Assembly: GCF_003385455.1 (NCBI RefSeq)
Contig: NZ_QNUF01000027.1
Location: forward strand, 1-64,000
DNA: 64,000 bases
Origin: Chryseobacterium rhizosphaerae
GTDB lineage: Bacteria; Bacteroidota; Bacteroidia; Flavobacteriales; Weeksellaceae
Direction of reading: 5' to 3'
Part shown: one piece after another, positions 8,710 to 24,760 of the stretch
How the letters are laid out: each line of letters opens with the position of its first letter
Numbering within the stretch: the stretch's first letter is position 1
The notes under the pieces: generated by a model
Database searches by the model: none
What the model was told of the DNA's origin: nothing
The model's input: only the letters and a program-made list of their open reading frames with translations
Made by a program: the position numbers and the translations under genes

Positions 8710-9787
8710 TTACTTACAGACAGGTTTAACATCGTTTAGTAAGGTAACTAAGGTTTTTCCGGGTTCCTCAATGGGGATCAGATGGGCAGAATTTTCAAAC
8801 CATATCCCTTTTTTAAACGGAGCTTTTACATTTTGCAACCATTGCGCAGTGGGCTCAGAAGGGGTAGTGTAATCATGCCTTCCCATAAACATAAAAACCG
8901 GAATAGGGAAGGTTTTAATATTCTTAAAGTCAGTATCCAGAAATTCAGGAAGCACCTTTGCCAGGGTAAATACACTGCCTTTACCAATAGCCTCAGCATC
9001 CTGATAAGAATATTCCGGGGATAATAACGGAGCTTGGAGGAAATACCTGGAATTATTCCTGAAAGCTGTAAGTCCGCCATAATACTGGGGCCATTTCCGT
9101 GCAATAATGATCCTTTTTCTGGTAATAGGAGTGGTTCCCGGATAGGGTGCTATAGATGCCAATTCTTTCAAAGCCTCTTCATTTTTTAACCGGGTACGGC
9201 AAAATCAACACTCAAACGTTCATTGTCTCTAGTATTGATGACCTGTCCGATTCCTACATAAGCATAAAACAGATCCGGTCTTTTCAACCCCGCCCTCATA
9301 GAAATAATCGTTCCCCAGCTGTGACCAATCAGCAATACTTTCTTCTTTTTATACTTTGCTTTGATTAATTCAGCCAGTTCAATAGCATCATCTACATATT
9401 GACTGATATGAATGGTGTTTTTTAATGATAAGGTATCATTGGCATGATAAGTTTTGCCGGAAGCCCGCTGATCGTAATTGACAACAGTGAAATACTCCTC
9501 AATAGGTCTTTGAAACATCCACATGACCGGCGAAAGAGGTGAAGCCGGACCACCGTGTACAAAGAGTATCACCGGATTATCTTTATGCTGACCACGCACA
9601 AAAACCCATTGCTGAACACCCCGATATTTACTTTATATCTTTCCTGAATTCCATTGGGACTTACAATTGAATCCAGGTCCTTTATAATTTCCCTAGCTTC
9701 AGCATACTCATCTCCGGGTTTGCTGTTTTGTCCGAATATCGAAAGAGAAAACAATAATATGATGACGAATATTATCTTATTTTTCAT
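8710..9787 (-). pseudogene. Alpha/beta hydrolase (proline iminopeptidase-like), two frameshifts
   Basis: Three consecutive minus-strand frames together make one secreted alpha/beta hydrolase. Piece 1 (9569-9787) has a signal peptide (IFVIILLFSLSIFGQ) and runs to ERYKVNIG. Piece 2 (9186-9599) carries the oxyanion region HGGPASPLSP, YDQRASGKT and the nucleophile elbow GHSWGT. Piece 3 (8710-9171) carries the late Asp (GRHDYTTPSEP) and the catalytic His region (FENSAHLIPIEEP). Between 1 and 2, reading one base over gives GVQQWVFVRGQHKD, the normal family sequence, so a single base is missing near 9625 (a run of four G). Between 2 and 3 a second shift lies near 9183-9200, beside a run of six A. 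All catalytic residues survive, so either the decay is recent or these are sequencing errors. Confidence 0.75.
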
Positions 9788-9987
9788 AAGTCGCTGATTT
9801 TGTAAGCCAAATTAAAAAAGATAATTTTAATAATCAAATAAAATGCATTCATAGGTCGATCTTATGATCATGCTAATCTCTGTACTCAGATGCTTATTAA
9901 AATCCGAATAAATTTCTTCAAAATAACGCTTAAGTAGCATTAAATTTAAAAGGCCTACCTTTACAATAACCAAACAAAATTATTAAT

Positions 9988-10791: not shown

Positions 10792-11271
10792 CGTATGTGA
10801 ATCTGAGTACAAAAAAACTGATTTTATGTACATCATATTTCTATTTTGTGATCCAAACGTATATTCAGACCTTTGAAATGTCGATTTTTAAATATGAGAC
10901 CTATTGTTGAATTTCAGGATCATATCTTTTCTTAAAATTATTGGGACAAATGATATTCACATCATTCCGTATAAAGCGTTGAAAAAATAATTTTAATGTA
11001 ACACATAATTAACCTTAGTCTTGAAATAAAATCACGGGCTTATCAAATACTTCCTATTTACAGTATAATTTTAGTGTTAAAAAAATTATAAATTTCTCTA
11101 AAATCAGTCCGAATTCAGCCTTAAAAAAAGAATATTAAGACAAAATATCCCTCATATTTTCAATGATTTAAAGCTTTTTCATAATAAAAAACAAATCCCC
11201 ATGCGGCTGTTTCAATAAAATGGCTATATTTACCACCAAGGAGTTCTTAACACCTTCTTTATCAACCGAAA
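10792..11271. other. Non-coding spacer upstream of prp leader
   Basis: About 480 bases of A/T-rich sequence with no convincing open frame. It should contain the promoter of the prp riboswitch transcript; TATATTTA at 11225-11232 is one mismatch from the -7 consensus but lacks a -33 element at a suitable distance. Confidence 0.4.
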
Positions 11272-11435
11272 CTGGTTACACTTAGCTGTGTATTAAAAGG
11301 GAATCGTGTGCAAATCACGAACTGTCGCGCAACTGTAAGTAACATGAAGGTTTTTATCAATATATGTCCACTGTTTACCTGGGTAAATGGGAAGGATGAT
11401 AAAAACTGTTACAAGTCAGGAGACCTGCCTATTTC
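11272..11435 (+). ncRNA. Cobalamin (B12) riboswitch upstream of prpBCD
   Basis: The conserved parts of the RF00174 aptamer are present in order: AAAAGGGAATCGTGTGCAAAT, then CTGTCGCGCAACTGTAAGTA, then GGGAAGG, and the B12 box GTCAGGAGACCTGCC at 11415-11429. Downstream, a block conserved with the metE riboswitch (GAATTGACGATGCTTTCGCG) probably belongs to the expression platform. By known biology such switches lower expression when adenosylcobalamin is present, which fits a B12-independent propionate route. Confidence 0.92.
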
Positions 11436-11673
11436 GAATTGACGATGCTTTCGCGATCTGAAGCTTATAGTCAGGTATGATACGATATAGATAACTGTGC
11501 GCTGTTTTTTCGTAAGTTATTTTTTTGAGATAGTTGTAATGTGGCCGTGTGCCTTTTCATTATGTCTATAAGCTCATTCGTATTTCCCTTTCCATAGTTT
11601 TTATTTCCCATCAGGCATTGTGAAGTTTGGCAAGAGCTTTTTAAAAGGATTTTATCATTTAAAAAGTTGAAGA
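11436..11673 (+). promoter_or_regulatory. Riboswitch-to-ORF leader, related to the metE leader
   Basis: The stretch between the aptamer and the short MetE-like frame. Its 5' end shares the TGCTTTCGCG block with 22281-22292 and its 3' end shares AGAGCTTTT and AAAAGTT just before ATGCAAAC with the metE leader. No T-rich terminator with a strong stem was identified, so control may be at translation initiation. Confidence 0.6.
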
Positions 11674-11835
11674 ATGCAAACATATAATCGCTATGTAAGA
11701 ATCAGTAACTGGCTTATAATGGAAAAGAGCAGTCCATTCCCTTGGATCAATAAGGTTTTGCTAAAAGCTTTCAACACAGATTTAATTTCTGTTCATCATT
11801 ATCCGTTATCATCAGGTATTCCTATACATCAATAA
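11674..11835 (+). CDS. 53-codon open frame resembling the N-terminus of MetE
   Basis: ATG at 11674, TAA ending at 11835. It starts MQTYNRYVRISNW, against MQTHILGYPRIGS in MetE at 22460. With one single-residue gap, the later segments WINKVLLKAF and WSGKILLEEL also line up (Trp24 with Trp25, then Lys and Leu-Leu). I count about 11 identities in the first 34 positions. The nucleotide sequence before the ATG is also shared (AAAAGTT...ATGCAAAC). It is too short to be an enzyme. It is best read as a fossil of a duplicated metE 5' end that now forms part of the prp leader. It could be translated as a leader peptide, because 53 codons remain free of stops. Confidence 0.6.
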   Translation: MQTYNRYVRISNWLIMEKSSPFPWINKVLLKAFNTDLISVHHYPLSSGIPIHQ

Positions 11836-11901
11836 CTCCTATTGCTTTTATCAGCAATCCCATACACCAAAACAAATTTTTAACAAAACAATAGATATTA
11901 A

Positions 11902-12810
11902 ATGATTAAGAATGAAAGTATGCAGTCTCCCGGGTTACGATTCCGCGAGGCTATGCAGAAAGAAAAACCTCTCCAGATTGTAGGAGCTATTAATGCCAAC
12001 CATGCATTATTGGCACAGCAGGCAGGTTTTAATGCAATTTATCTTTCGGGAGGTGGTGTTGCCGCCGGTTCTTTAGGAATTCCCGATCTGGGAATTACTA
12101 CCCTGGAAGATGTACTAACAGATGTTCAGCGCATCACCAATATCTGTGATCTCCCCCTTATGGTGGATATTGATACGGGATTTGGTCCGTCGGCTTTTAA
12201 CGTAGCCAGAACAGTAAAATCTCTGATTAAAGCTGGAGCAGCAGCCTTACATATTGAAGATCAGGTAGGAGCCAAACGTTGTGGCCACCGTCCCGGAAAA
12301 GAAATTGTGAGTAAAGAAGAAATGACAGACAGGCTGAAAGCTGCCGCAGATGCCCGTGTCGACGAAAATTTTGTTATCGGAGCACGAACGGATGCATTTG
12401 CCAATGAAGGACTGGAAAAAACACTGGAAAGAGCTATTGCCTATAAGGAGGCAGGTGCCGATTTCATTTTTGCAGAAGCAGTACCGGACCTGAGCTACTA
12501 TCAAAAATTTGTAGATGCTACAGGAATCCCTGTATTGGCCAATATTACAGAATTTGGAATGATCAGCATGTATACTGTTGAAGAATTGAAGACCGCGGGA
12601 GTAGGGTTGATTCTTTATCCGCTTTCTGCTTTCCGCGCAGCTAATAAAGCCGCTCAAAATGTCTATGAACATATCCGTAAAGAGGGTACCCAGGCTAATG
12701 TGATAGATACCATGCAAACCAGAGAAGAACTCTACCAAAGTATTGGATACCATGATTATGAACAAAAATTAGATAACCTTTTTAAAAAGAATACTGATGT
12801 CAACAAATAA
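11902..12810 (+). CDS. prpB: 2-methylisocitrate lyase
   Basis: 302 residues, typical length. It cleaves 2-methylisocitrate to pyruvate and succinate, the last step of the 2-methylcitrate cycle. The catalytic signature KRCGH lies at 125-129 (Cys127), and the Mg-binding strand VDIDTGFG at 88-95 and EDQ at 119-121 match the isocitrate lyase/PEP mutase superfamily. The late segment [13 protein letters not shown] is typical of PrpB. It overlaps prpC by 14 bases, indicating translational coupling. The upstream leader contains a B12 riboswitch. Confidence 0.95.
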
Positions 12811-13948
12811 TGAACCTACCTTCAAGCCTAAAAAAAGTGTCGCGCTTTCGGGAGTAGCAGCCGGCAATACAGCACTTTGCAGTGTCGGAAAAAGTGGAAA
12901 CGACCTGCACTACAGAGGATATGATATTTTGGACCTTGCAGAAAAAACGCAGTTTGAAGAAGTGGCTTACCTGCTGATCTATGGGCATCTGCCTACCGAA
13001 GCACAGCTGAAAAATTATAAGGCAAAATTAAAATCATTAAGAGGGCTGCCACATTCTGTAAGAAATATTTTAAAAAGTATCCCTGCTGCTGCACATCCAA
13101 TGGACGTTATGCGGTCAATGGTATCTGCTATCGGTAGTATTCAGCCGGAAAAAGATGATCATAATATGGCGGGAGCCAGAGATATAGCCGATAAATTACT
13201 GGCATCATTCAGCTCAGGCCTTTTGTATTGGTACCACTATACCCACAACGGAAAAGAAATTGATGTAGAGACAGATGATGATACTATCGGAGGCCATTTC
13301 CTTCATTTACTGCATGGAAAAAAACCTTCCGATTCCTGGACAAAAGCCATGCAGATCTCTCTGAATCTGTATGCAGAACATGAATTTAATGCTTCTACAT
13401 TCACAAGCCGTGTTATTGCAGGTACAGGTTCCGATATTTATTCTGCCATTACAGGAGCTATTGGAGCATTAAGAGGACCTAAACACGGGGGTGCCAATGA
13501 AGTGGCTTTTGAAATTCAGAGCCGTTATCATTCTCCGGACGAAGCAGAAAGCGACATCAGGCAGCGTATTGCCAACAAAGAAGTGATCATTGGATTCGGA
13601 CATCCGGTCTATACCATTTCAGACCCAAGAAATGTAGTGATCAAAAAAGTAGCTAAAGAACTTTCCGAAGAAGCAGGGGATATGTTACTTTTTAATATTG
13701 CTGAAAGACTGGAAACCATTATGTGGGAAGAAAAGAAAATGTTCCCTAATCTGGATTGGTTCTCTGCGGTATCCTACCACTTAATGGGAGTACCTACGCT
13801 GATGTTTACGCCATTATTCGTAATTTCAAGAGTTACAGGATGGAGCGCACATATCATGGAACAGAGACAGGATGGTAAAATCATCCGTCCAAGCGCCAAT
13901 TATACAGGTCCTGAAAACAAAGCATTTGTATCCATCGATCAACGATAA
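12797..13948 (+). CDS. prpC: 2-methylcitrate synthase
   Basis: 383 residues. It condenses propionyl-CoA with oxaloacetate. The citrate synthase active-site histidines are visible: [13 protein letters not shown] (His195), GPKHGGANE (His230) and GFGHPVY (His269). The SDPR that follows and the C-terminal RPSANYTGP are typical of the short, PrpC-type synthases of bacteria rather than the large GltA type. It starts within the end of prpB and lies 45 bp before prpD. Confidence 0.95.
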
Positions 13949-13993: not shown

Positions 13994-15445
13994 ATGAGTT
14001 CACACATTTCAAATGAAAGGCCACAGCCGGATAAAGTACTGGCAGATATTGCAGATTATGTATTAAACTACGAAATAAAAAATGACCTTGCCTGGAAAAC
14101 AGCCCATTACTGTCTTCTTGATACGATTGGGTGTGGTCTGGAAGCTTTGACCTATCCGGCCTGTACCAAACTTTTAGGACCTGTAGTAAAAGGGACTATC
14201 GTTCCGAATGGTGGTAAAGTTCCGGGAACACAGTTTCAACTTGACCCTATTCAGGCTGCATTTAATATTGGGACAATTATCCGTTGGCTGGATTTTAATG
14301 ATACGTGGCTGGCTGCTGAGTGGGGACATCCATCAGATAACTTAGGCGGTATTTTAGCAACAGCCGATTGGTTATCCAGAACCAATATTGCAGAAGGAAA
14401 AGCTCCTCTTAAAATGAAGCAGGTATTGGAGGCCATGATCATGGCTCATGAAATACAAGGGGTAATGGCGCTGGAAAACTCTTTTAACAAAGTAGGTTTA
14501 GACCATGTTTTGCTGGTAAAACTGGCTTCTACAGCAGTAGTAGGAAAATTGATAGGGTTAACCCGCGACGAATTGATCAATGCCGTATCATTAGCTTTTG
14601 TAGATGGTCAGTCTTTAAGAACATACCGCCATGCTCCTAATACAGGGTCCAGAAAATCATGGGCAGCAGGAGATGCTACATCAAGAGCCGTTCGTTTAGC
14701 ATTAATAGCACAAACCGGAGAAATGGGATACCCTTCCGTTCTGACAGCAAAAACCTGGGGATTCTATGATGTATCTTTCAAAGGAAATGAATTCAAATTC
14801 CAGAGAGACTACACTTCCTATGTGATGGAAAATGTACTATTCAAAATTTCATTCCCGGCCGAGTTTCATTCCCAGACAGCCGTTGAAGCTGCAATGACAT
14901 TACATCACACCTTACAGGACCTTGGAAAAACAACAGATGACATTAAAAAAATTACCATCAGAACTCATGAAGCGGCCATCCGGATTATAGACAAAAAAGG
15001 TCCGCTGAACAACCCTGCAGACCGTGATCACTGTATTCAGTACATGGTAGCCGTTCCATTAATTTACGGAAGACTTACCGCTGCCGATTATGAAGACAGT
15101 ATCGCTTTAGATCCGCGAATTGATATCCTCCGTGATAAAATTGAATGCGTAGAAGATGTACAGTTTACCACAGATTATCATAATCCTGAAAAACGTTCTA
15201 TTGCCAATGCTTTGACTGTAGAATTGAATGACGGAACCATTTTAAATGAAATAGAGGTAGAATATCCTATAGGTCACAAACGAAGAAGAGAGGAAGGAAT
15301 TCCTGAATTAATTAAAAAGTATAAAATCAATTTGGCAAGAATATTCCCTGAAAAACAACAGCGGGTAGTATTAGAAAACTCGTTGGAGTATGACACCCTT
15401 GTCAATCTTAATGTCAATGAATTTGTTGATTTATTGGTCATATAA
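13994..15445 (+). CDS. prpD: 2-methylcitrate dehydratase (MmgE/PrpD family)
   Basis: 483 residues, the normal PrpD length. It dehydrates 2-methylcitrate to 2-methyl-cis-aconitate without an Fe-S cluster. The N-terminal segment ([12 protein letters not shown]), the central [19 protein letters not shown] and the block [20 protein letters not shown] are characteristic of PrpD. The hydration of methylaconitate to methylisocitrate would need an aconitase from elsewhere, as none lies in the operon. A strong hairpin follows the stop codon. Confidence 0.95.
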
Positions 15446-15515: not shown

Positions 15516-17012
15516 ATGTCACATACAGTACAAATATTAATCAATGGAAACTTTATAGAAAGTAAAGCTTCTGAACATTTACCTGTTGAAAATCCTGCCA
15601 CACAGGAAATTCTTGCAGAAGTTCCCCTAACGCTATTGTCTGAAATAGACGAAGCGATTGAAGCTGCCCAACTGGCCTTCAAAACATGGAAAGAGGTAGC
15701 CACCCCGGAAAGGGCAAGGTTATTCTTAAAATACCAGCATCTTTTAAAAGAAAATCAGAAAGAAATCGCTGAAATCCTGTCCAGAGAGAATGGAAAAACA
15801 CTTGCCGATGCTATGGGAGACGTATGGCGGGGTATTGAAGTCGTGGAACATGCCTGTAATATCCCAACGCTGATGATGGGCGAGACCGTAGAAAATGTAG
15901 CAAGAGGTGTAGATACCTATAGCTATATTCAACCACTTGGAGTCTGTGCGGGAATTACCCCTTTTAATTTCCCTGCAATGATTCCTTTATGGATGTTCCC
16001 TATGGCTATTGCCTGCGGCAATACCTTTATTTTAAAACCTTCCGAGCAGACCCCAATGACCTCCATGAAAATGGCAGAGCTGTTTTTGAAAGCAGGCTTT
16101 CCTAAAGGGGTACTGAATATTGTCCATGGTTCCAAAGACCAGGTAAACCATATTCTTAACCATCCGGAAATTAAAGCTATATCCTTCGTAGGCTCTGTCC
16201 CTGTAGCGGAACATGTTTACCGTACCGGAACAGATAACCTGAAAAGAGTACAGGCTTTTGGAGGAGCAAAAAACCATATGGTGGTAATGCCTGATGCCAA
16301 TAAAGAGCAGGTGGTCAATAATTTAGTGGGAGCCTCATGTGGGGCTGCCGGCCAGCGTTGTATGGCAATCAGTGTTGCCGTTTTGGTAGGAGAAGCTCAA
16401 CATTGGGTGGAGGATATTAAAAACGCTTTAAAAACCATTAAGCCGGGAGTATGGTCAGACGAGTCTGCCGCATTTGGCCCCTTAATCAACAGGCAGTCTA
16501 AGGAAAAAGTGCTACGACTGATCAAAAGTGGCTATGAACAGGGAGCTGAAGTCTTATTAGACGGAAGTGAATGTACAGTAGAAGGCTATGAAAACGGATA
16601 TTTTGTAGGCCCTACTTTATTCAGTAATGTATCTGTGGATATGGACATTTATAAAGAAGAGATCTTCGGTCCTGCATTACTTTTGTTAAAAGCCGACACC
16701 TTAGACGAAGCCATCAGTATCATCAATGCCAATCCTTATGGGAACGGAACTTCAATATTTACCAATTCCGGAGCTGCAGCCCGAAAATTCCAACATGAAA
16801 TTGAAGTAGGCCAGATTGGTATTAATCTTCCTATTCCTGTGCCGCTGCCATTTTTCTCTTTTACAGGATGGAGAAAATCTTTCTTCGGAGATCTGCATTC
16901 ATACGGAAAACAGGGCATCCGTTTCTATACCGAAACAAAAACAGTTACAGCCCGCTGGTTTGAAGAAGATGTGCCGGGAGGAAATCTCAATATGACCATC
17001 AGTCTAAAATAA
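15516..17012 (+). CDS. mmsA: CoA-acylating methylmalonate-semialdehyde dehydrogenase
   Basis: 498 residues. It oxidises methylmalonate semialdehyde to propionyl-CoA with NAD+ and CoA, and so feeds PrpC. The aldehyde dehydrogenase fold is clear: [12 protein letters not shown]-like segment ([13 protein letters not shown]), the NAD-site [13 protein letters not shown], and the catalytic Cys in the motif [11 protein letters not shown], which is specific to the MMSDH subfamily. The C-terminal [19 protein letters not shown] is also diagnostic. It starts 24 bp after the prpD-mmsA hairpin. Confidence 0.95.
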
Positions 17013-17087
17013 TGGAAAGCAAACGGTGGAAAATGCCTATATGCTCTCCACTTTCAACACTCAGCTTTCAACTTAAATTTAAATACA

Positions 17088-18248
17088 ATGGAGTTTAACC
17101 TAAATGAAGATCAGCTGGCTTTTCAGGATGCGGCAAGAAGATTCGCTGAAAAAGAATTTTTCCCCTACGCTTCAGAATGGGATGCCAAAAAGATATTCCC
17201 AAGAGAAGCAATTGCTAAGGCCGGAGAACTTGGGTTTTGTGGCATTTATACAAGTGAAACAGCAGGAGGTCTGGGATTGTCAAGATTGGATGCAGCCATC
17301 ATATTTGAAGAGCTCGCTTCAGCCTGTCCTTCAACTACGGCTTATATTACCATACACAATATGGTTTCCTGGATGATTGACAAATTTGCGAAAGATGATG
17401 TCCGGGAAGAATTATGTCCGGCTTTAGCTTCAGGTATATTACTGGGCTCTTATTGTCTTACTGAACCCGGGTCAGGTTCTGATGCTGCAGGATTGAAAAC
17501 CACAGCTGTAAAAAAGGGCAATACCTATATCATCAATGGAACAAAGGCCTTTATTTCCGGAGCCGGAGAAAGCGATATCCTGATTGTAATGGCCCGTACA
17601 GGAGATCCCGGTTCAAAAGGAATCAGTGCTTTTATTGTACCTGCCAATACAAAAGGAATCAGCTTCGGAGAAAAAGAAAAAAAACTGGGCTGGAATACCC
17701 AGCCTACACGTTTTGTATTCCTGGATCATGTGGAAGTAGAAGAGAAGTATCTTTTGGGAGAACCTGGAGAAGGTTTTAAAATTGCCCTGAAAGGACTGGA
17801 TGGGGGCAGGATAAACATTGGAAGCTGCTCAGTAGGAGCCGCACAGGGCGCTATCAATCAGGCTCAGCAGTATATGCATGAAAGGCAGCAGTTTGGAAAA
17901 TCATTGGCTCAGTTTCAATCGCTTCAGTTTAAAATTGCCGATATGGTAACAGATCTTGTTGCTGCCCGCCAAATGGTTCATCTGGCTGCTTTTAAACTGG
18001 ATTCCAAAGACCCGAATGCTACAACCTATTGTGCTATGGCCAAAAGATTAGCAACAGATATGTGTTTTAATATCTGTAATGAAGCTATTCAGGTCCTGGG
18101 AGGGTATGGCTGCACACAGGATTTCCCTGTAGAAAGACTGATGCGGGATGCCAGAATCCATCAGGTAGTGGAGGGAACCAATGAAATTATGAAACTGGTA
18201 ATCTCCAGAAAGATTTTAGAAGTAGGAGCGACCCTACAAATCAGATAG
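17088..18248 (+). CDS. Acyl-CoA dehydrogenase, probably isobutyryl-CoA dehydrogenase
   Basis: 386 residues. Flavoprotein that introduces the first double bond (isobutyryl-CoA to methacrylyl-CoA is the likely reaction, from its place in the valine cluster). Signatures: YCLTEPGSGSDA for the FAD/acyl-CoA site, GGRINIGSCSVGAAQ, and the C-terminal GGYGCTQDFPVERLMRD followed by VEGTNEIMK, where the Glu is the catalytic base position of this class. Electrons go to ETF. Substrate specificity inferred from context. Confidence 0.9.
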   Translation: MEFNLNEDQLAFQDAARRFAEKEFFPYASEWDAKKIFPREAIAKAGELGFCGIYTSETAGGLGLSRLDAAIIFEELASACPSTTAYITIHNMVSWMIDKFAKDDVREELCPALASGILLGSYCLTEPGSGSDAAGLKTTAVKKGNTYIINGTKAFISGAGESDILIVMARTGDPGSKGISAFIVPANTKGISFGEKEKKLGWNTQPTRFVFLDHVEVEEKYLLGEPGEGFKIALKGLDGGRINIGSCSVGAAQGAINQAQQYMHERQQFGKSLAQFQSLQFKIADMVTDLVAARQMVHLAAFKLDSKDPNATTYCAMAKRLATDMCFNICNEAIQVLGGYGCTQDFPVERLMRDARIHQVVEGTNEIMKLVISRKILEVGATLQIR

Positions 18249-18351
18249 TTATAACAGATAAAAACGGAAAGCTGAAACCGGATAATAATCTACATCTGTT
18301 TTAACATTTCAGCCCATAAAATTTTTAAAGTTCAATTTTCAATTCAATACA

Positions 18352-19443
18352 ATGAGCTTAGTACTAACAGAAATAAAAAACAAAGTCGGGATCATCACTT
18401 TAAATTCCGAAAAAACACTGAATTCTCTGTCATTACCTATGATTGAAGAATTACAGAGCATTCTGACAGATTGGAAAACATCCGATCAGGTAGTCTGTCT
18501 TTTTCTTCAGGGTGCCGGTGAAAAAGCTTTATGTGCAGGGGGAGATGTACGGAAGCTCTATGATGCTATTATGGCACAAAGAGCTATTGACCCTACGGAA
18601 GTCCCTAAAGACTGCTACGATTTCTTTTCAAAAGAGTATCAGGTAGATTACGACATCCATACCTATCCAAAGCCTGTAATAGTCTGGGGAAGCGGTATTG
18701 TAATGGGTGGCGGTATCGGTCTGATGGTAGGAGCTTCCCATCGTATCGTCACCGAAAAAAGTAAACTGGCCATGCCTGAAATTACCATTGGCCTGTATCC
18801 GGATGTAGGAGGTACCTGGTTTTTGAATAAAATGCCTTCTGCCTTTGGAATATATTTAGGCTTAACCGGGGCAAGATTAGATGGTGCAGACTGCAAATAT
18901 TTAGGACTGGCAGATTATTATATGGAATCCTCTTCAAAAGAAGATATTATAAACGCTCTGAAACAGGCAGACTGGACAAGTAATCCTTATCAAACAGTTT
19001 CCGATATTTTAAATACGATCTCGGAAAATACAGATATTCCTGAATCCCAGGCTGCATTACATCATGAATTTATCCAGAATTTTGAAGGAGTAGATGCTGT
19101 AGAGGAATTCAGTGATCTGATAAGGAATTATCCTGAAAAAGATGACTGGATCAATACAGGATTAAAAAGTTTTACCGCAGGATCTCCAAGTTCGGCACAC
19201 ATTATTTTCAGACAATTGAAACAAGGCAAGCACCTGAGCCTGGAAGAGGTCTTCCAATCTGAATTGAACCTTTCATGTCAATGTTGCATCCACCCGGATT
19301 TTGCAGAAGGAGTAAGGGCTTTATTGGTGGATAAAGATCAGTCTCCCCAGTGGCAGCCCGCCACTTTAAATGATATTACCACAGAATGGATAGACAGCTA
19401 TTTTGCGGAATTAAAAGTAGAGGACTTTCAATCTTTATCCTGA
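18352..19443 (+). CDS. 3-hydroxyisobutyryl-CoA hydrolase (HIBCH-like, enoyl-CoA hydratase/isomerase family)
   Basis: 363 residues, longer than a typical crotonase (260) and equal to HIBCH. The hallmark KALCAGGDVRKLYDA lies near residues 56-70 and GIVMGGGIGLMVGASHRI forms the oxyanion region. MPEITIGLYPDVGGTWFL is the conserved segment with the catalytic acid. It hydrolyses 3-hydroxyisobutyryl-CoA to free 3-hydroxyisobutyrate, which the mmsB product then oxidises. Confidence 0.92.
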   Translation: MSLVLTEIKNKVGIITLNSEKTLNSLSLPMIEELQSILTDWKTSDQVVCLFLQGAGEKALCAGGDVRKLYDAIMAQRAIDPTEVPKDCYDFFSKEYQVDYDIHTYPKPVIVWGSGIVMGGGIGLMVGASHRIVTEKSKLAMPEITIGLYPDVGGTWFLNKMPSAFGIYLGLTGARLDGADCKYLGLADYYMESSSKEDIINALKQADWTSNPYQTVSDILNTISENTDIPESQAALHHEFIQNFEGVDAVEEFSDLIRNYPEKDDWINTGLKSFTAGSPSSAHIIFRQLKQGKHLSLEEVFQSELNLSCQCCIHPDFAEGVRALLVDKDQSPQWQPATLNDITTEWIDSYFAELKVEDFQSLS

Positions 19444-19603
19444 TTAGACATAAACATCTGCCTTATCTGCACAATCTGCGAAAGGTAAAAAACATATAGG
19501 TTTTGGCTAACGCCATACTATCTCACTTCTATTCAAATAATAATTGATTACACCTTTTCTAATCTCAAGTCTCAAATCTCTAACATCTAATTCAAAAAAA
19601 ATC

Positions 19604-20500
19604 ATGTCAAATATAGCATTCATCGGTTTAGGAAATATGGGAGGCCCTATGGCTGCCAATCTTATCAGGAAAGGTCATACCGTTACAGGTTTTGATCTTT
19701 CGGAAACAGCATTAAAGGTATTGGAATCAGCTGGTGGTCAGACGGCCGGATCAGCTTTAGATGCTGCAAAATCCGCAGACGTAATTATCTCGATGTTACC
19801 TTCAGGAAAGCATGTTGCAGAACTCTATTCTGAGGACTTCATCAGTACTCTGAAACCGAATACATTATTGATTGACAGCAGTACTATTGATGCTGTTACA
19901 GCCCGCTCAGTTGCGACATTAGCCATTTCAAAAGGGTGCAAAATGATAGATGCTCCCGTTTCCGGGGGTACCGGTGGGGCACAGGCAGGAACATTGACCT
20001 TTATTGTGGGTGGTAAGCAGGAAGATTATGAAAAAGCCCGACCGATCTTGAAATGTATGGGACAAAATATATTTCATGCCGGAGAATCCGGAGCCGGACA
20101 GGTCGCTAAAATCTGTAATAATATGCTGCTAGCCATTCATATGATTGGCACCTCAGAAGCGATCAACCTGGGAGTAAAACATGGTCTGGACCCCAAAATA
20201 TTAAGTGAAATCATGCAGAAAAGTTCCGGTAAAAACTGGTCTTTAGAAGTATATAACCCATATCCCGGTGTGATGGAAAATGCTCCGGCTTCCAGAGCCT
20301 ATTCAGGAGGCTTTGCCGTAGATCTGATGGCTAAAGATTTAGGCCTTGCCGCAGAAGCCGGATTGGAAACCAAAACCTCTACACCATTAGGGAATACCGC
20401 ACTGAACTTATACAGAATCTGGAGTGAAACAGGACATGGGAAAACAGATTTCTCCAGTATTCTTCAATTTTTAAATGGAAAAGGGAATATTGAAAATTAA
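19604..20500 (+). CDS. mmsB: 3-hydroxyisobutyrate dehydrogenase
   Basis: About 298 residues from ATG 19604 (MSNIAFIGLGNMGGPMAANL). The upstream open frame from 19544 is polar leader sequence not found in the family. The NAD-binding GLGNMG motif is at the N-terminus. The substrate-site DAPVSGGTGGAQAGTL is the family signature (PVSGGxxGAxxGTL), and the catalytic Lys lies in GQVAKICNNM. It oxidises 3-hydroxyisobutyrate to methylmalonate semialdehyde for MmsA. Same strand and cluster as the hydrolase and hydratase. Confidence 0.95.
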   Translation: MSNIAFIGLGNMGGPMAANLIRKGHTVTGFDLSETALKVLESAGGQTAGSALDAAKSADVIISMLPSGKHVAELYSEDFISTLKPNTLLIDSSTIDAVTARSVATLAISKGCKMIDAPVSGGTGGAQAGTLTFIVGGKQEDYEKARPILKCMGQNIFHAGESGAGQVAKICNNMLLAIHMIGTSEAINLGVKHGLDPKILSEIMQKSSGKNWSLEVYNPYPGVMENAPASRAYSGGFAVDLMAKDLGLAAEAGLETKTSTPLGNTALNLYRIWSETGHGKTDFSSILQFLNGKGNIEN

Positions 20501-20562
20501 AACAGCCATTCACCCTCTATTTTCATTCCCAATATTTAACCTTTAAATTTCAACGTAAGACA

Positions 20563-21345
20563 ATGAATTTTGAAACATTAATATATCACCAGGAAGGCCA
20601 TATCGGAACACTAACGATCAACAGGCCACAAGCTTTGAATGCTTTGAATGAAACAGTTTTAAAAGAACTTACTTCATTTACGGAACAAATACAATCAGAC
20701 CGGAATATAAGAGTCTTAATCATTACCGGGTCCGGGGAGAAAGCTTTTGTTGCAGGAGCTGATATCAAAGCCATGCAGGGGATGAGTCCCAAAGAAGCAG
20801 AAGACTTTTCAATGGTGGCACAGACGGCATTTAATGCTGTTGAAAACCTGCCGTTTGCAGTGATTGCAGTCGTAAATGGATTTGCCCTGGGCGGTGGTTG
20901 TGAACTGGCATTATCCTGCGATATTATTTTAGCAAGCGGAAAAGCGAAATTCGGGTTACCGGAAGTTACATTGGGCTTATTACCATGTTTTGGGGGTACC
21001 CAGCGTCTTCCAAGAGCGATTGGTTTATATAAAGCCAGGGAAATGGTTTTCTCAGGAGACTTTTATTCCGCGGAAGCCTGCAAAGATTTCGGTTTTGTTA
21101 ACCATGTTTTTGCACCCGAAGAATTACTGAATGAAGCTCTAAAGCTGGCCAAAACCATTGCATCAAGAGGACCTGTGGCTGTTGCAAAAGCAAAACAGTC
21201 TTTAAATACAGGTTCTGAACTTCATATCTCTGAAGGATTAAAACAAGAAGCGGCTTTATTCGGAGCATTATTTACCACACAGGACCATAGCGAAGGCATA
21301 GGGGCATTTATAGAAAAAAGAACCCCTGATTTCCAGGGAAATTAA
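20563..21345 (+). CDS. Enoyl-CoA hydratase (crotonase family), probably methacrylyl-CoA hydration
   Basis: 260 residues, standard crotonase length. The active site shows AFVAGADIKAM (oxyanion loop), FALGGGCELALSCDI (second oxyanion glycine and the first catalytic Glu) and FGLPEVTLGLLPCFGGTQRLPR (second Glu). It ends the valine-to-propionyl-CoA cluster. Substrate assigned from context; broad short-chain enoyl-CoA activity is possible. Confidence 0.9.
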   Translation: MNFETLIYHQEGHIGTLTINRPQALNALNETVLKELTSFTEQIQSDRNIRVLIITGSGEKAFVAGADIKAMQGMSPKEAEDFSMVAQTAFNAVENLPFAVIAVVNGFALGGGCELALSCDIILASGKAKFGLPEVTLGLLPCFGGTQRLPRAIGLYKAREMVFSGDFYSAEACKDFGFVNHVFAPEELLNEALKLAKTIASRGPVAVAKAKQSLNTGSELHISEGLKQEAALFGALFTTQDHSEGIGAFIEKRTPDFQGN

Positions 21346-21898: not shown

Positions 21899-22113
21899 AG
21901 GATATTATTCTTTTTAGTATTAATTTTCATCAAAGTTACAGAATTATATTCTTTTAAAATTGAACTATAAGGATATATTTGCTTTATTTTAAATCAATAC
22001 TTGTTCATTTATTCTGTATATGTAATTTTACACAAAATTAAAATCTTCTATCAATACAGATAGTCAGTATAATTAATAAAGAATAGTTCTTTACAATACT
22101 TCATCAAACAGGA

Positions 22114-22270
22114 GAGGTTTTACGTAAGGTAAATTAATAGGGAATCGTGTGCAAATCATGAGCTGTCGCGCAACTGTAAGTAACACACCAAAGGTTTCTG
22201 TCCTTGTGATCCACTGCCTGAAAGCGGGAAGGACGACAGATACTGTTACAAGTCAGGAGACCTGCCTTTA
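22114..22270 (+). ncRNA. Cobalamin (B12) riboswitch upstream of metE
   Basis: The conserved elements appear in order: TTAATAGGGAATCGTGTGCAA, then CTGTCGCGCAACTGTAAGTA, then GCGGGAAGG, and the B12 box GTCAGGAGACCTGCC at 22252-22266. A block downstream (GAATTGACAATGCTTTCGCG) is shared with the prp switch. Repression of metE by B12 is the known use of this riboswitch class, since MetH can replace MetE when B12 is available. The aptamer is followed by about 190 bases of leader before the metE ATG. Confidence 0.95.
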
Positions 22271-22459
22271 CTGAATTGACAATGCTTTCGCGGTCTGAAG
22301 CTTTGGGTCATACAGATGATATATTTTTTAGTACGTTTTTCTCAGAGTAAAACGGGATTATCAGGTATGTCATTATTTTCCCCAAAAATAGATACCGGCA
22401 AAAGCATTACGAAGCATTCAAAGAGCTTTTAAAAATAAGTTTAATTAAAAGTTTAAAAA

Positions 22460-24760
22460 ATGCAAACGCACATTCTAGGCTATCCGCGAATTGGTAGCAA
22501 AAGAGAACTCAAAAAAGCCTGCGAGCAATATTGGTCAGGTAAAATTCTTTTGGAAGAACTTCTTACTACAGGAAGGAATATCTGCAATCACAATTGGAAT
22601 ATTCAGAAGGAAGCAGGGATAGACCTTATCCCATGTAATGATTTTTCCTATTACGATCAGGTACTGGATATGAGCTTAATTGTAGGAGCTATTCCGGTAC
22701 GTTATCATGAAGTCGCCCTTAAAAAAAATAATTCAGAACTGGATCTGTACTTTGCGATGGCAAGAGGATACCAGAAAGACGGACTGGATATCACGGCCAT
22801 GGAAATGACCAAATGGTTTGATACCAATTATCATTATATTGTTCCAGAATTTTATAAAAATCAGCAGTTTAAACTGACTTCCGACAAAATATTCAACGAG
22901 TTTGCGGGAGCTAAACAAGCTGGAATTAATGCCAAGCCGGTACTCATCGGGCTTGTTTCTTACCTTCTTTTAGGAAAGGAAAAGGAAGAAGGATTTGATA
23001 AACTGGATCTTGCAAAAAATCTTCTTCCGGTATACACCGAAATCATAACAAAACTTCAGGATCAGGGTGCCCAATGGATTCAGTTTGATGAACCGTTTTT
23101 AACCTTAGATATAACGGAGAAAGCAAAAGAAACCTATCAGTACGTTTATCGGGAACTTAGAAAGCAGTTTCCAAAACTGAAATTCATCATCGCAACCTAT
23201 TTCGACGGATTGAAAGACAATGCATCTCTTGCGGTTTCACTTCCGGCAGACGTTCTGCATATAGACCTGGTGAGAAATCCTGAGCAGCTGGAAGATATTT
23301 TAAATACTATTCCTGAAAACCTAAGCCTGTCATTAGGAGTGGTAGACGGAAGAAATATCTGGAAAAACAACTATGAAAAGTCTTTGACTTTCATTAAAAA
23401 AGCTACCGAAAAACTGGGTACAGAAAGAATTTTTGTGGCTCCGTCATGTTCATTACTTCATTCGCCTTGTGATCTGGATTTTGAAACGGCCCTTCAGCCT
23501 GAAATTAAAAACTGGCTGTCTTTTGCAAAACAAAAAGTGAAAGAAGTCGTAAGTCTTAAAGCTCTTGCTTCAGGAACTGAGGATGAAAGTATCCTTGCAG
23601 ATTTTGAAGACAATAAAAAGGCTGTTGCCAGCAGAAAAACATCTTCTCTTATTCATAATGATAAAGTGAAACAAAGAGTGGCTGCCGTAACTGAAGAAGA
23701 TGCTCAGCGAAAGAATTCATTTAGAATCCGTAAAGAAAAGCAGCAGGAATCATTACAGCTTCCGCTATTCCCAACCACCACCATAGGCTCATTCCCGCAA
23801 ACTACTGAAGTAAGAAGCTGGAGGGCCCAGTTTAAAAAAGGGGATCTTAGTGCAGAACAATACGATGCTTTATTGAAAGAGGAAACTCAGAGAACCATCC
23901 GTTGGCAGGAAGAAATAGGAATTGATGTCCTTGTTCACGGAGAATTTGAACGTAATGACATGGTAGAATACTTCGGGGAAAAGCTTGAAGGATTTATTTT
24001 CACTAAAAACGGCTGGGTACAGAGCTATGGAAGCCGTTGTGTAAAACCACCCGTTATTTTCGGAGATATTTCCCGTCCTGATCCAATGACTGTATACTGG
24101 TCTCAATATGCGCAATCCCAAACCAGTAAATGGGTAAAAGGAATGCTGACCGGTCCTGTTACCATATTACAATGGTCTTTTGTACGGGATGATCAGCCCC
24201 GTGCCGAGACTTGTAAGCAGATTGCTTTGGCGATCCGTGATGAAGTAGTGGATCTTGAAAAAGCAGGAATCCGGATTATCCAGATTGATGAGCCTGCCAT
24301 CAGAGAAGGTCTTCCATTGAGAAAAGCAGAATGGCAAAACTACCTGAAATGGGCTGTAGAAGCCTTCAGAATCTCAGCAAGTGGAGTAGAAGATGCTACC
24401 CAGATCCATACCCATATGTGCTATTCTGAATTTAATGATATTATTAAAAATATTGCCGATATGGATGCAGATGTTATTACGATAGAATGTTCGAGATCTC
24501 AAATGGAACTTTTAAATGCTTTTGCAGATTTTAAATACCCAAACGAAATAGGTCCCGGAGTTTATGACATCCACTCTCCAAGGGTTCCTTCTAAAGAAGA
24601 AATGATTGAGCTTTTAAGGAAAGCTCAAAATGTAATTCCAGCCAGCCAGTTATGGGTAAATCCTGACTGTGGCCTGAAAACAAGACATTGGGAAGAAACT
24701 GAAAAAGCTTTAATTGCAATGGTAGCTGCTGCTAAAGAAGCTTCAGCAGCCTATGCATAA
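22460..24760 (+). CDS. metE: Cobalamin-independent methionine synthase
   Basis: 766 residues, normal MetE length. It transfers a methyl group from 5-methyltetrahydropteroyltri-glutamate to homocysteine. The N-terminus has the conserved LGYPRIGSKRELK; the C-terminal catalytic half has LPTTTIGSFPQT-like (FPTTTIGSFPQT), QIDEPAIREGLPL, and the zinc ligands in QIHTHMCYSEF (His and Cys) and WVNPDCGLKTR (last Cys). It stands alone under the B12 riboswitch and ends in a strong hairpin. The start matches the family exactly. Confidence 0.97.
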   Translation: MQTHILGYPRIGSKRELKKACEQYWSGKILLEELLTTGRNICNHNWNIQKEAGIDLIPCNDFSYYDQVLDMSLIVGAIPVRYHEVALKKNNSELDLYFAMARGYQKDGLDITAMEMTKWFDTNYHYIVPEFYKNQQFKLTSDKIFNEFAGAKQAGINAKPVLIGLVSYLLLGKEKEEGFDKLDLAKNLLPVYTEIITKLQDQGAQWIQFDEPFLTLDITEKAKETYQYVYRELRKQFPKLKFIIATYFDGLKDNASLAVSLPADVLHIDLVRNPEQLEDILNTIPENLSLSLGVVDGRNIWKNNYEKSLTFIKKATEKLGTERIFVAPSCSLLHSPCDLDFETALQPEIKNWLSFAKQKVKEVVSLKALASGTEDESILADFEDNKKAVASRKTSSLIHNDKVKQRVAAVTEEDAQRKNSFRIRKEKQQESLQLPLFPTTTIGSFPQTTEVRSWRAQFKKGDLSAEQYDALLKEETQRTIRWQEEIGIDVLVHGEFERNDMVEYFGEKLEGFIFTKNGWVQSYGSRCVKPPVIFGDISRPDPMTVYWSQYAQSQTSKWVKGMLTGPVTILQWSFVRDDQPRAETCKQIALAIRDEVVDLEKAGIRIIQIDEPAIREGLPLRKAEWQNYLKWAVEAFRISASGVEDATQIHTHMCYSEFNDIIKNIADMDADVITIECSRSQMELLNAFADFKYPNEIGPGVYDIHSPRVPSKEEMIELLRKAQNVIPASQLWVNPDCGLKTRHWEETEKALIAMVAAAKEASAAYA

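Follow-up and report, generated by a model that had tools for sequence, protein, structure and literature searches.

A reading frame between a cobalamin riboswitch and prpBCD in Chryseobacterium, likely begun by a copied metE 5' end and probably relaying B12 control

Amino-acid operons of the trp and his type carry leader peptides, which are encoded by a short frame in the leader. In Mycobacterium tuberculosis, the ppe2 riboswitch works via a translated frame, uPPE2, the stop of which overlaps the ppe2 start and which passes riboswitch control on to ppe2-cobQ(U), mainly by termination-reinitiation (PMC11260477). uPPE2 is the closest precedent for the locus described below, and the relay principle is already known (PMC11260477). 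The locus lies in a stretch of 64,000 nucleotides of Chryseobacterium rhizosphaerae, here called the window, which is part of contig 27 of a genome of 5.27 Mb and the prpB gene of which has its nearest named relatives in Chryseobacterium. Between a cobalamin riboswitch and prpB, a leader frame of 53 codons with a metE-like start (11674..11835, + strand) encodes the peptide MQTYNRYVRISNWLIMEKSSPFPWINKVLLKAFNTDLISVHHYPLSSGIPIHQ and ends with a normal TAA stop at 11833-11835, 66 nt before prpB; its position and length are those that the earlier note on this DNA had read from the letters alone.

The operon comprises prpB for methylisocitrate lyase (11902..12810, +; TIGR02317, 408.6 bits), prpC for 2-methylcitrate synthase (12797..13948, +; NF009006, 702.8 bits) and prpD for 2-methylcitrate dehydratase (13994..15445, +; TIGR02330, 853.2 bits). 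Further downstream lies metE for B12-independent methionine synthase (22460..24760, +; TIGR01371, 1145.4 bits), from which the copied 5' end in the prp leader likely stems; all four assignments are above cut-off. Two of the six cobalamin riboswitches of the genome are located in the window, one before prpB and one before metE. MetH has its B12-independent counterpart in the metE enzyme, as the methylmalonyl-CoA pathway has in the methylcitrate cycle, and since this genome encodes MetH and contains methylmalonyl-CoA-mutase-family genes, repression of metE and prp by B12 would be sensible. Besides prpBCD, the region between the two riboswitches encodes a methylmalonate-semialdehyde dehydrogenase, a 3-hydroxyisobutyryl-CoA hydrolase and a 3-hydroxyisobutyrate dehydrogenase (NCBIfam, above cut-off) as well as acyl-CoA-dehydrogenase-like and enoyl-CoA-hydratase-like proteins (NCBIfam, below cut-offs). 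Several of the genes after prpD (15516-21345) belong to valine breakdown to propionyl-CoA, and B12 may control both the supply and the disposal of propionyl-CoA if these genes are on the prp transcript. Elsewhere in the genome (locus L002 on contig 11, 1501-2180), a cobalamin riboswitch lies directly 5' of a gene resembling a hotdog acyl-CoA thioesterase, a product read by eye and an unusual target for a cobalamin riboswitch.

The prp aptamer (11256..11446, +) reaches 103.5 bits with the RF00174 covariance model as opposed to a gathering score of 31.5 bits and would bind cobalamin and switch expression, and the metE aptamer (22098..22283, +) reaches 92.2 bits. A total of 173 genus genomes were searched, 35 of which contain prpB, and a B12 box lies 5' of prpB in all 35. 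The prp aptamer is followed by a hairpin with a CGCG loop, GCTTTCGCGATCTGAAGC (11447..11464, +), common to the metE leader and near-invariant across 35 prp and 29 metE leaders, which resembles P13 with its loop L13. An element conserved in the alignments, GCATTGTGAAG (11615..11625, +), is found about 50 nt 5' of the leader start, and an A+U-rich hairpin of 10-11 pairs (11635..11668, +) ends 5 nt 5' of the start codon; when 28 prp leaders were folded, all except L110 formed the latter in their lowest-energy structure (27 of 28), and it is less regular in metE leaders. A switch pairing between the 5' arm of P13 and the GAAG element GCATTGTGAAG was ranked top in 25 of 34 prp leaders and in 7 of 28 metE leaders, with one leader per set lacking the element by pattern and with the end of the searched stretch set arbitrarily in clade-B leaders (see below) that have no defined start; this pairing is not claimed. 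A simple consensus scan of the + strand of 11000-11950 found no terminator-like site.

In addition to the aptamer family and the P13-like hairpin, the prp and metE leaders have in common a block of about 82 nt that runs through the start codon and codons 1-3. The block was searched with R1, a sequence-only model built from 29 aligned metE leader ends, each comprising 75 nt before the start and the 12 nt that begin with it (30 of the 35 genomes gave metE loci, 29 of them with a start; L147 was missed by the pattern). In the prp leader, R1 matches 11601..11682 (+; 34.9 bits, E 7.8e-8) and the match ends a few codons into the leader frame, while the metE counterpart lies at 22393..22471 (+; 68.2 bits, E 3.2e-18), the window metE sequence itself having been among the 29 used to build the model. 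In a search of its own 5.27-Mb genome, with 150 of 9749 first-look candidates scored, metE ranked first and the prp leader second, followed by a third match of 17.6 bits (E 0.019). R1 also matches the leader at E <= 0.01 in 20 of the remaining 34 prp loci and more weakly (0.02-0.5) in nine, and five (L104, L106, L112, L113 and L120) have no match in the leader. Over 98 genus genomes, three extra matches were obtained at sites without a riboswitch (E 2-6e-4, 22-23 bits); they look like chance and were rejected as further metE-block loci. Because of these matches and a chance-like one in L109 away from the leader (E 0.0066), the R1 E-values must be regarded as optimistic, although the window match at 34.9 bits stands well above the level of 22-23 bits. 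The earlier note had proposed that the sequence upstream of the frame is shared with the metE leader, which is borne out by an alignment that extends outside the aptamer and is the second-best in the genome.

For the comparison of the frame across the genus, the genomes were grouped post hoc, after the frames had been seen, into clade A (23 genomes) and clade B, the 10 genomes with a metE only 78-79% identical to that of the window, in addition to the window and its sister L088. Start codons were picked by their position after the hairpin and then checked in the alignment. At the conserved place, a frame of 53-79 codons is present in 25 of the 35 genomes (the window, the sister and all of clade A), one of 30-49 codons in six, one of 11-12 codons in three and none in one. 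The start is kept in nine of the ten clade-B genomes and the frame is short there, with 49 codons in L117, 38 in L116, 36 in L110, 32 in L094, 30 in both L104 and L113, 12 in L112 (starting with GTG) and 11 in L102 and L108; in L111, no frame begins with ATG or GTG at this place. L120 has GTA at the aligned start position and, directly 5' of it, an ATG in the same frame.

Over codons 2-61, not a single stop occurs in the 23 clade-A leaders, whereas the other sense frames contain 52 and 71 stops, the antisense frames 98, 101 and 83, and the preceding 180 nt 86, 89 and 78. In a neutral simulation, in which open sequences evolved along the clade-A leader tree (tree length 4.9, kappa set to 3), a mean of 1.04 of 23 leaders remained open, with a maximum of 9 and never 23 in 300 runs. 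The simulation and the six-frame counts refer to the 23 clade-A leaders only; an earlier stop count covered 27 of the 35 leaders, leaving out eight clade-B leaders without a then-defined start, and L117 was added later. Judged by these comparisons, the clade-A frame is kept open by selection, and it would therefore in practice be translated. The window and its sister show no stop before codon 54, but a second sense frame is also open over codons 2-53 in the sister, so that the case for openness in the window lineage rests on its kinship with clade A. Frequent stops in close relatives, which the earlier note had named as evidence against the frame, are not seen in the sister and the 23 clade-A genomes and are seen in clade B. 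Its alternative of a fossil or a functional frame can be narrowed accordingly: in clade A the frame is no fossil, and in clade B it is shortened to at most 49 codons and is not open to prpB.

The position of the stop also differs between the lineages. In all 23 clade-A genomes, the frame stops within -15 to +14 nt of the A of prpB, where the stop overlaps the prpB start or lies within prpB in 12 genomes, abuts it in 1 and precedes it by 1-15 nt in 10. This resembles the stop of uPPE2 at the downstream start, while the distance to prpB is 66 nt in the window, 61 nt in the sister and 40-142 nt in the nine clade-B genomes with a frame. The 30-codon frames of L104 and L113 end at an ATG that is in frame with prpB. 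In clade A, the stretch of about 35 nt directly before prpB shows DNA-level conservation and contains no early stops, so the position of the stop is partly fixed once the frame is open up to there. A frame that is open between riboswitch and gene is thus found in 23 of 23 clade-A genomes and in none of the ten clade-B genomes, and the window lineage comprises only two genomes.

We consider it probable that the copied metE start is the target of the riboswitch and that translation of the leader relays B12 control to prpBCD, either by coupling or by Rho shielding. A duplicated metE 5' end would have brought the riboswitch, its expression platform, the translation start and some coding sequence to a position before prp, and the riboswitch would act at the copied start codon at 11674, as expected at metE. 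In the absence of B12, ribosomes would enter the leader frame and run towards prpB, where they would hand over by termination-reinitiation or, on the way, cover the RNA against Rho; in the presence of B12, entry would be blocked and prpBCD expression would fall. Selection would keep such a frame free of stops and ignore the peptide. We infer the OFF sense, the action at the leader start and the relay, the latter two from a platform that leads to the start and from an open frame without peptide constraint. The lack of a terminator-like site, the in-frame ATG at the stop in L104 and L113, and the PrpB start of a Pedobacter described below are counted in favour of the relay, while the stop distances of the window and its sister, the short clade-B frames and the P13/GAAG pairing, which is unsupported in metE leaders, are counted against it. 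Since clade B keeps the riboswitch but has a short frame, or none in L111, the relay would not be indispensable everywhere, and prpB may have a start site of its own, given the DNA conservation of the last 35 nt or so in clade A.

The step by which the ribosomes act may differ between lineages. Termination-reinitiation would apply in clade A and perhaps Rho shielding in leaders with an early stop; in the window, coupling would be weaker because the frame ends 66 nt before prpB, and the signal would have to be passed on by Rho shielding or by weak reinitiation. It is possible, if somewhat doubtful, that this sub-case of the relay applies generally and that leader ribosomes shield the RNA from Rho without reinitiating at prpB. 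Such shielding fits the window lineage and those clade-B frames that stop 40-70 nt early as well as the failure to find an intrinsic terminator-like site, but the stops at the prpB start in 23 genomes fit coupling, with the reservation that the DNA-conserved tail partly forces them there.

Unlikely, by comparison with the relay, is a mere remnant of the expression platform, in which the block and the start are kept for riboswitch folding and the frame has no function. The DNA alignments with most relatives do end at about the leader start codon, and the retained starts with short frames in clade B agree with this explanation, which, however, leaves both the lack of any stop in 23 x 60 codons and the stops at prpB unexplained.

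Selection on the peptide itself was assessed by comparing pN/pS in the frame with that in the two other sense frames. In three clade-A subclades, the values are 0.76, 0.83 and 0.74 in the frame as opposed to 0.76 and 0.57, 0.72 and 0.75, and 0.74 and 0.61 in the other frames, respectively, and thus these subclades give no sign of an amino-acid constraint beyond the ban on stops. A weak constraint read from pooled values of 0.72-0.79 was rejected, as the out-of-frame controls are equal or lower in the clade-A subclades. For the window and its sister, pN/pS is 0.60 in the frame versus 0.65 and 1.15, over 56 codons, which are too few to judge; taken by itself, the pair is no proof of selection for openness and leaves room for some selection on the peptide. 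Openness is selected in clade A and the peptide is not, as far as substitution patterns can tell. The earlier suggestion that the frame may be kept as a leader peptide therefore holds for the open frame and fails for the peptide. That the peptide matters, as a nascent-chain sensor, an attenuator or a small protein, is in our view quite improbable: the frame is kept open, KFQLNN-like residues recur near the C-terminus in 18 of the 23 clade-A peptides and pN/pS for the window and its sister is 0.60 in the frame over 56 codons, but the clade-A ratios are no lower than out of frame, the peptides differ greatly among subclades, the KFQLNN residues fall in a stretch conserved as DNA and are out of frame in 5 of 23, and Pfam has no match for the five peptides scanned. 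For an attenuator in particular, neither a conserved peptide or regulatory codons (clade-A pN/pS) nor an intrinsic terminator between frame and gene (consensus scan, + strand) was found. We lean slightly towards a frame that is selected only for the passage of ribosomes, with the metE 5' end retained as a riboswitch-controlled entry and an effectively neutral peptide.

The coding part of the frame also resembles MetE. The alignment with one gap described in the earlier note (MQT, Y, RI, K, W, K, LL) was recovered, and its local BLOSUM62 score of 36 is reached by 0.32% of 5,000 shuffles; without the first three residues, 0.68% of the shuffles reach the local score. In a fixed register, residues 7-34 score 30 against MetE, which none of 20,000 shuffles reaches, the gap and the register having been chosen post hoc. 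The DNA of this stretch is identical at 34 of 84 positions, a value reached by 0.35% of codon shuffles, but among 61 ungapped offsets +3 ranks only second. When 28 leader peptides were combined into a profile, it scored 30.9 against MetE residues 1-66 (E 1e-5 for one comparison), compared to a maximum of 15.96 in 300 column shuffles, none of which reached it; with another hhalign setting, the score was 20.4 and 1 of 200 controls was above. Splitting the profile gave 28.1 for the window and its sister (reached by 1 of 100 controls), 19.5 for three clade-B leaders (1 of 100), 19.7 for all leaders minus the window and its sister (0 of 100) and 14.2 for the 23 genomes of clade A alone (hhalign; 3 of 100 shuffles at or above), while the clade-A subclades were not significant, with 16, 54 and 21 of 100 shuffles at or above (hhalign). 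The likeness past codon 3 is therefore due chiefly to the window lineage and to three clade-B genomes, and it is weak in clade A.

Taken leader by leader, with rows that are not independent inside a clade, only the window among 27 leaders clearly beats its shuffles in local alignment (0.3-1%); L088 follows with 4.5%, or 37.6% without the first three residues, and the other 25 exceed 5%. When five fixed offsets are compared, 0 gives the highest score in 18 of the 27 leaders, and at the DNA level 13 of 28 leaders have offset 0 among their three best of 61, but it ranks 24, 31 and 54 in L103, L115 and L106. In clade A, the best alignments only suggest a deletion of about 17 codons relative to MetE; among 190 DNA offsets, the one predicted from it comes 3rd, 1st and 11th in the three subclades, taking the best of two offsets. 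Pfam returned no match, to MetE or any other family, at E up to 10 for five leader peptides; the relation of the leader peptides to MetE is only that of a decayed N-terminal fragment, visible in the profile comparison. For the set as a whole, the coding part likely descends from metE and has decayed in most leaders. The earlier idea that prp obtained its B12 control by duplication of the metE 5' end is thus supported for the block, the start and codons 1-3, and finds little backing past codon 3 in clade A. Convergence of A-rich start regions instead of descent would agree with the weak likeness in clade A past codon 3 and with only the window and L088 falling below 5%, but is highly improbable given that the 82-nt alignment including the start is the second-best in the whole genome, that the profile past codon 3 beats 300 of 300 shuffles for 28 leaders and 100 of 100 when the window and its sister are left out, and that no unrelated gene of this genome carries the block among the 150 of 9749 candidates scored.

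Relatives outside the genus bear on the origin of the arrangement. In Pedobacter cryoconitis (L029), a B12 box lies 220 nt before prpB, metE follows 4.66 kb downstream, and PrpB itself starts with MQTNNL, like the MQTHNL of MetE. Mucilaginibacter lappiensis (L064), with the PrpB start MQTNNL, has an apparent decayed cobalamin riboswitch before prpB (9760-9960), in which the B12 box and P13 are recognisable by eye without an Rfam match, and an intact riboswitch at metE; in another Pedobacter (L039, PrpB start MQTRIL), a pattern search found no B12 box. In the window and some clade-A genomes (L012, L013, L015, L020), metE lies about 10.6 kb after prpB on the same strand. The simplest reading would be that the metE 5' end became joined to prp. 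As a separate observation, an identical frame of eight codons, MKLTIVLK, occurs just before prpB with an ATGA overlap with the prpB start in five of five genomes, two of Elizabethkingia and three of one other genus of the family (L021, L022, L152, L153, L154); a B12 box lies upstream of it in L021 and L022, in which no match to the metE block was found. In the genome G164, which has prpB, metE is in two pieces, one with two TAA inside (contig 1, 2578525-2580632).

If the proposed relay is true, a riboswitch and a start codon of its own can be transferred together, as a cassette, to another operon, and a peptide-neutral frame can serve as a coupling wire. Relay frames of this kind would escape both annotation and screens for peptide conservation, and the avoidance of stops together with free amino acids offers a comparative test for them. 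It would also be a second relay from a B12 riboswitch via a frame to a gene, far from mycobacteria, and predicts that B12 represses the methylcitrate pathway in Chryseobacterium. A metE-derived, peptide-neutral frame with prp as its target was not found in the open-licence papers searched. The prp leader shares its aptamer family, P13-like hairpin and leader end with the metE cobalamin riboswitch (RF00174), where the start codon opens the enzyme gene, whereas in prp it opens a short frame before prpB. In contrast to the leader peptides of the trp and his type, the prp frame comes without a detected terminator-like site, its peptide is unconserved and control is attributed to the riboswitch. 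Compared with uPPE2, the prp frame differs in belonging to a different phylum, in its apparent derivation from metE, in its position before a methylcitrate operon, in being open without detectable peptide constraint and, in the window, in a stop 66 nt early (PMC11260477). Both loci are alike in having a frame between the B12 aptamer and the controlled gene, which is translated in uPPE2 and would be translated and act as a relay in prp, and the uPPE2 stop overlaps the start of its gene, to which an abutting or overlapping prp frame at prpB in the 23 relatives corresponds (PMC11260477).
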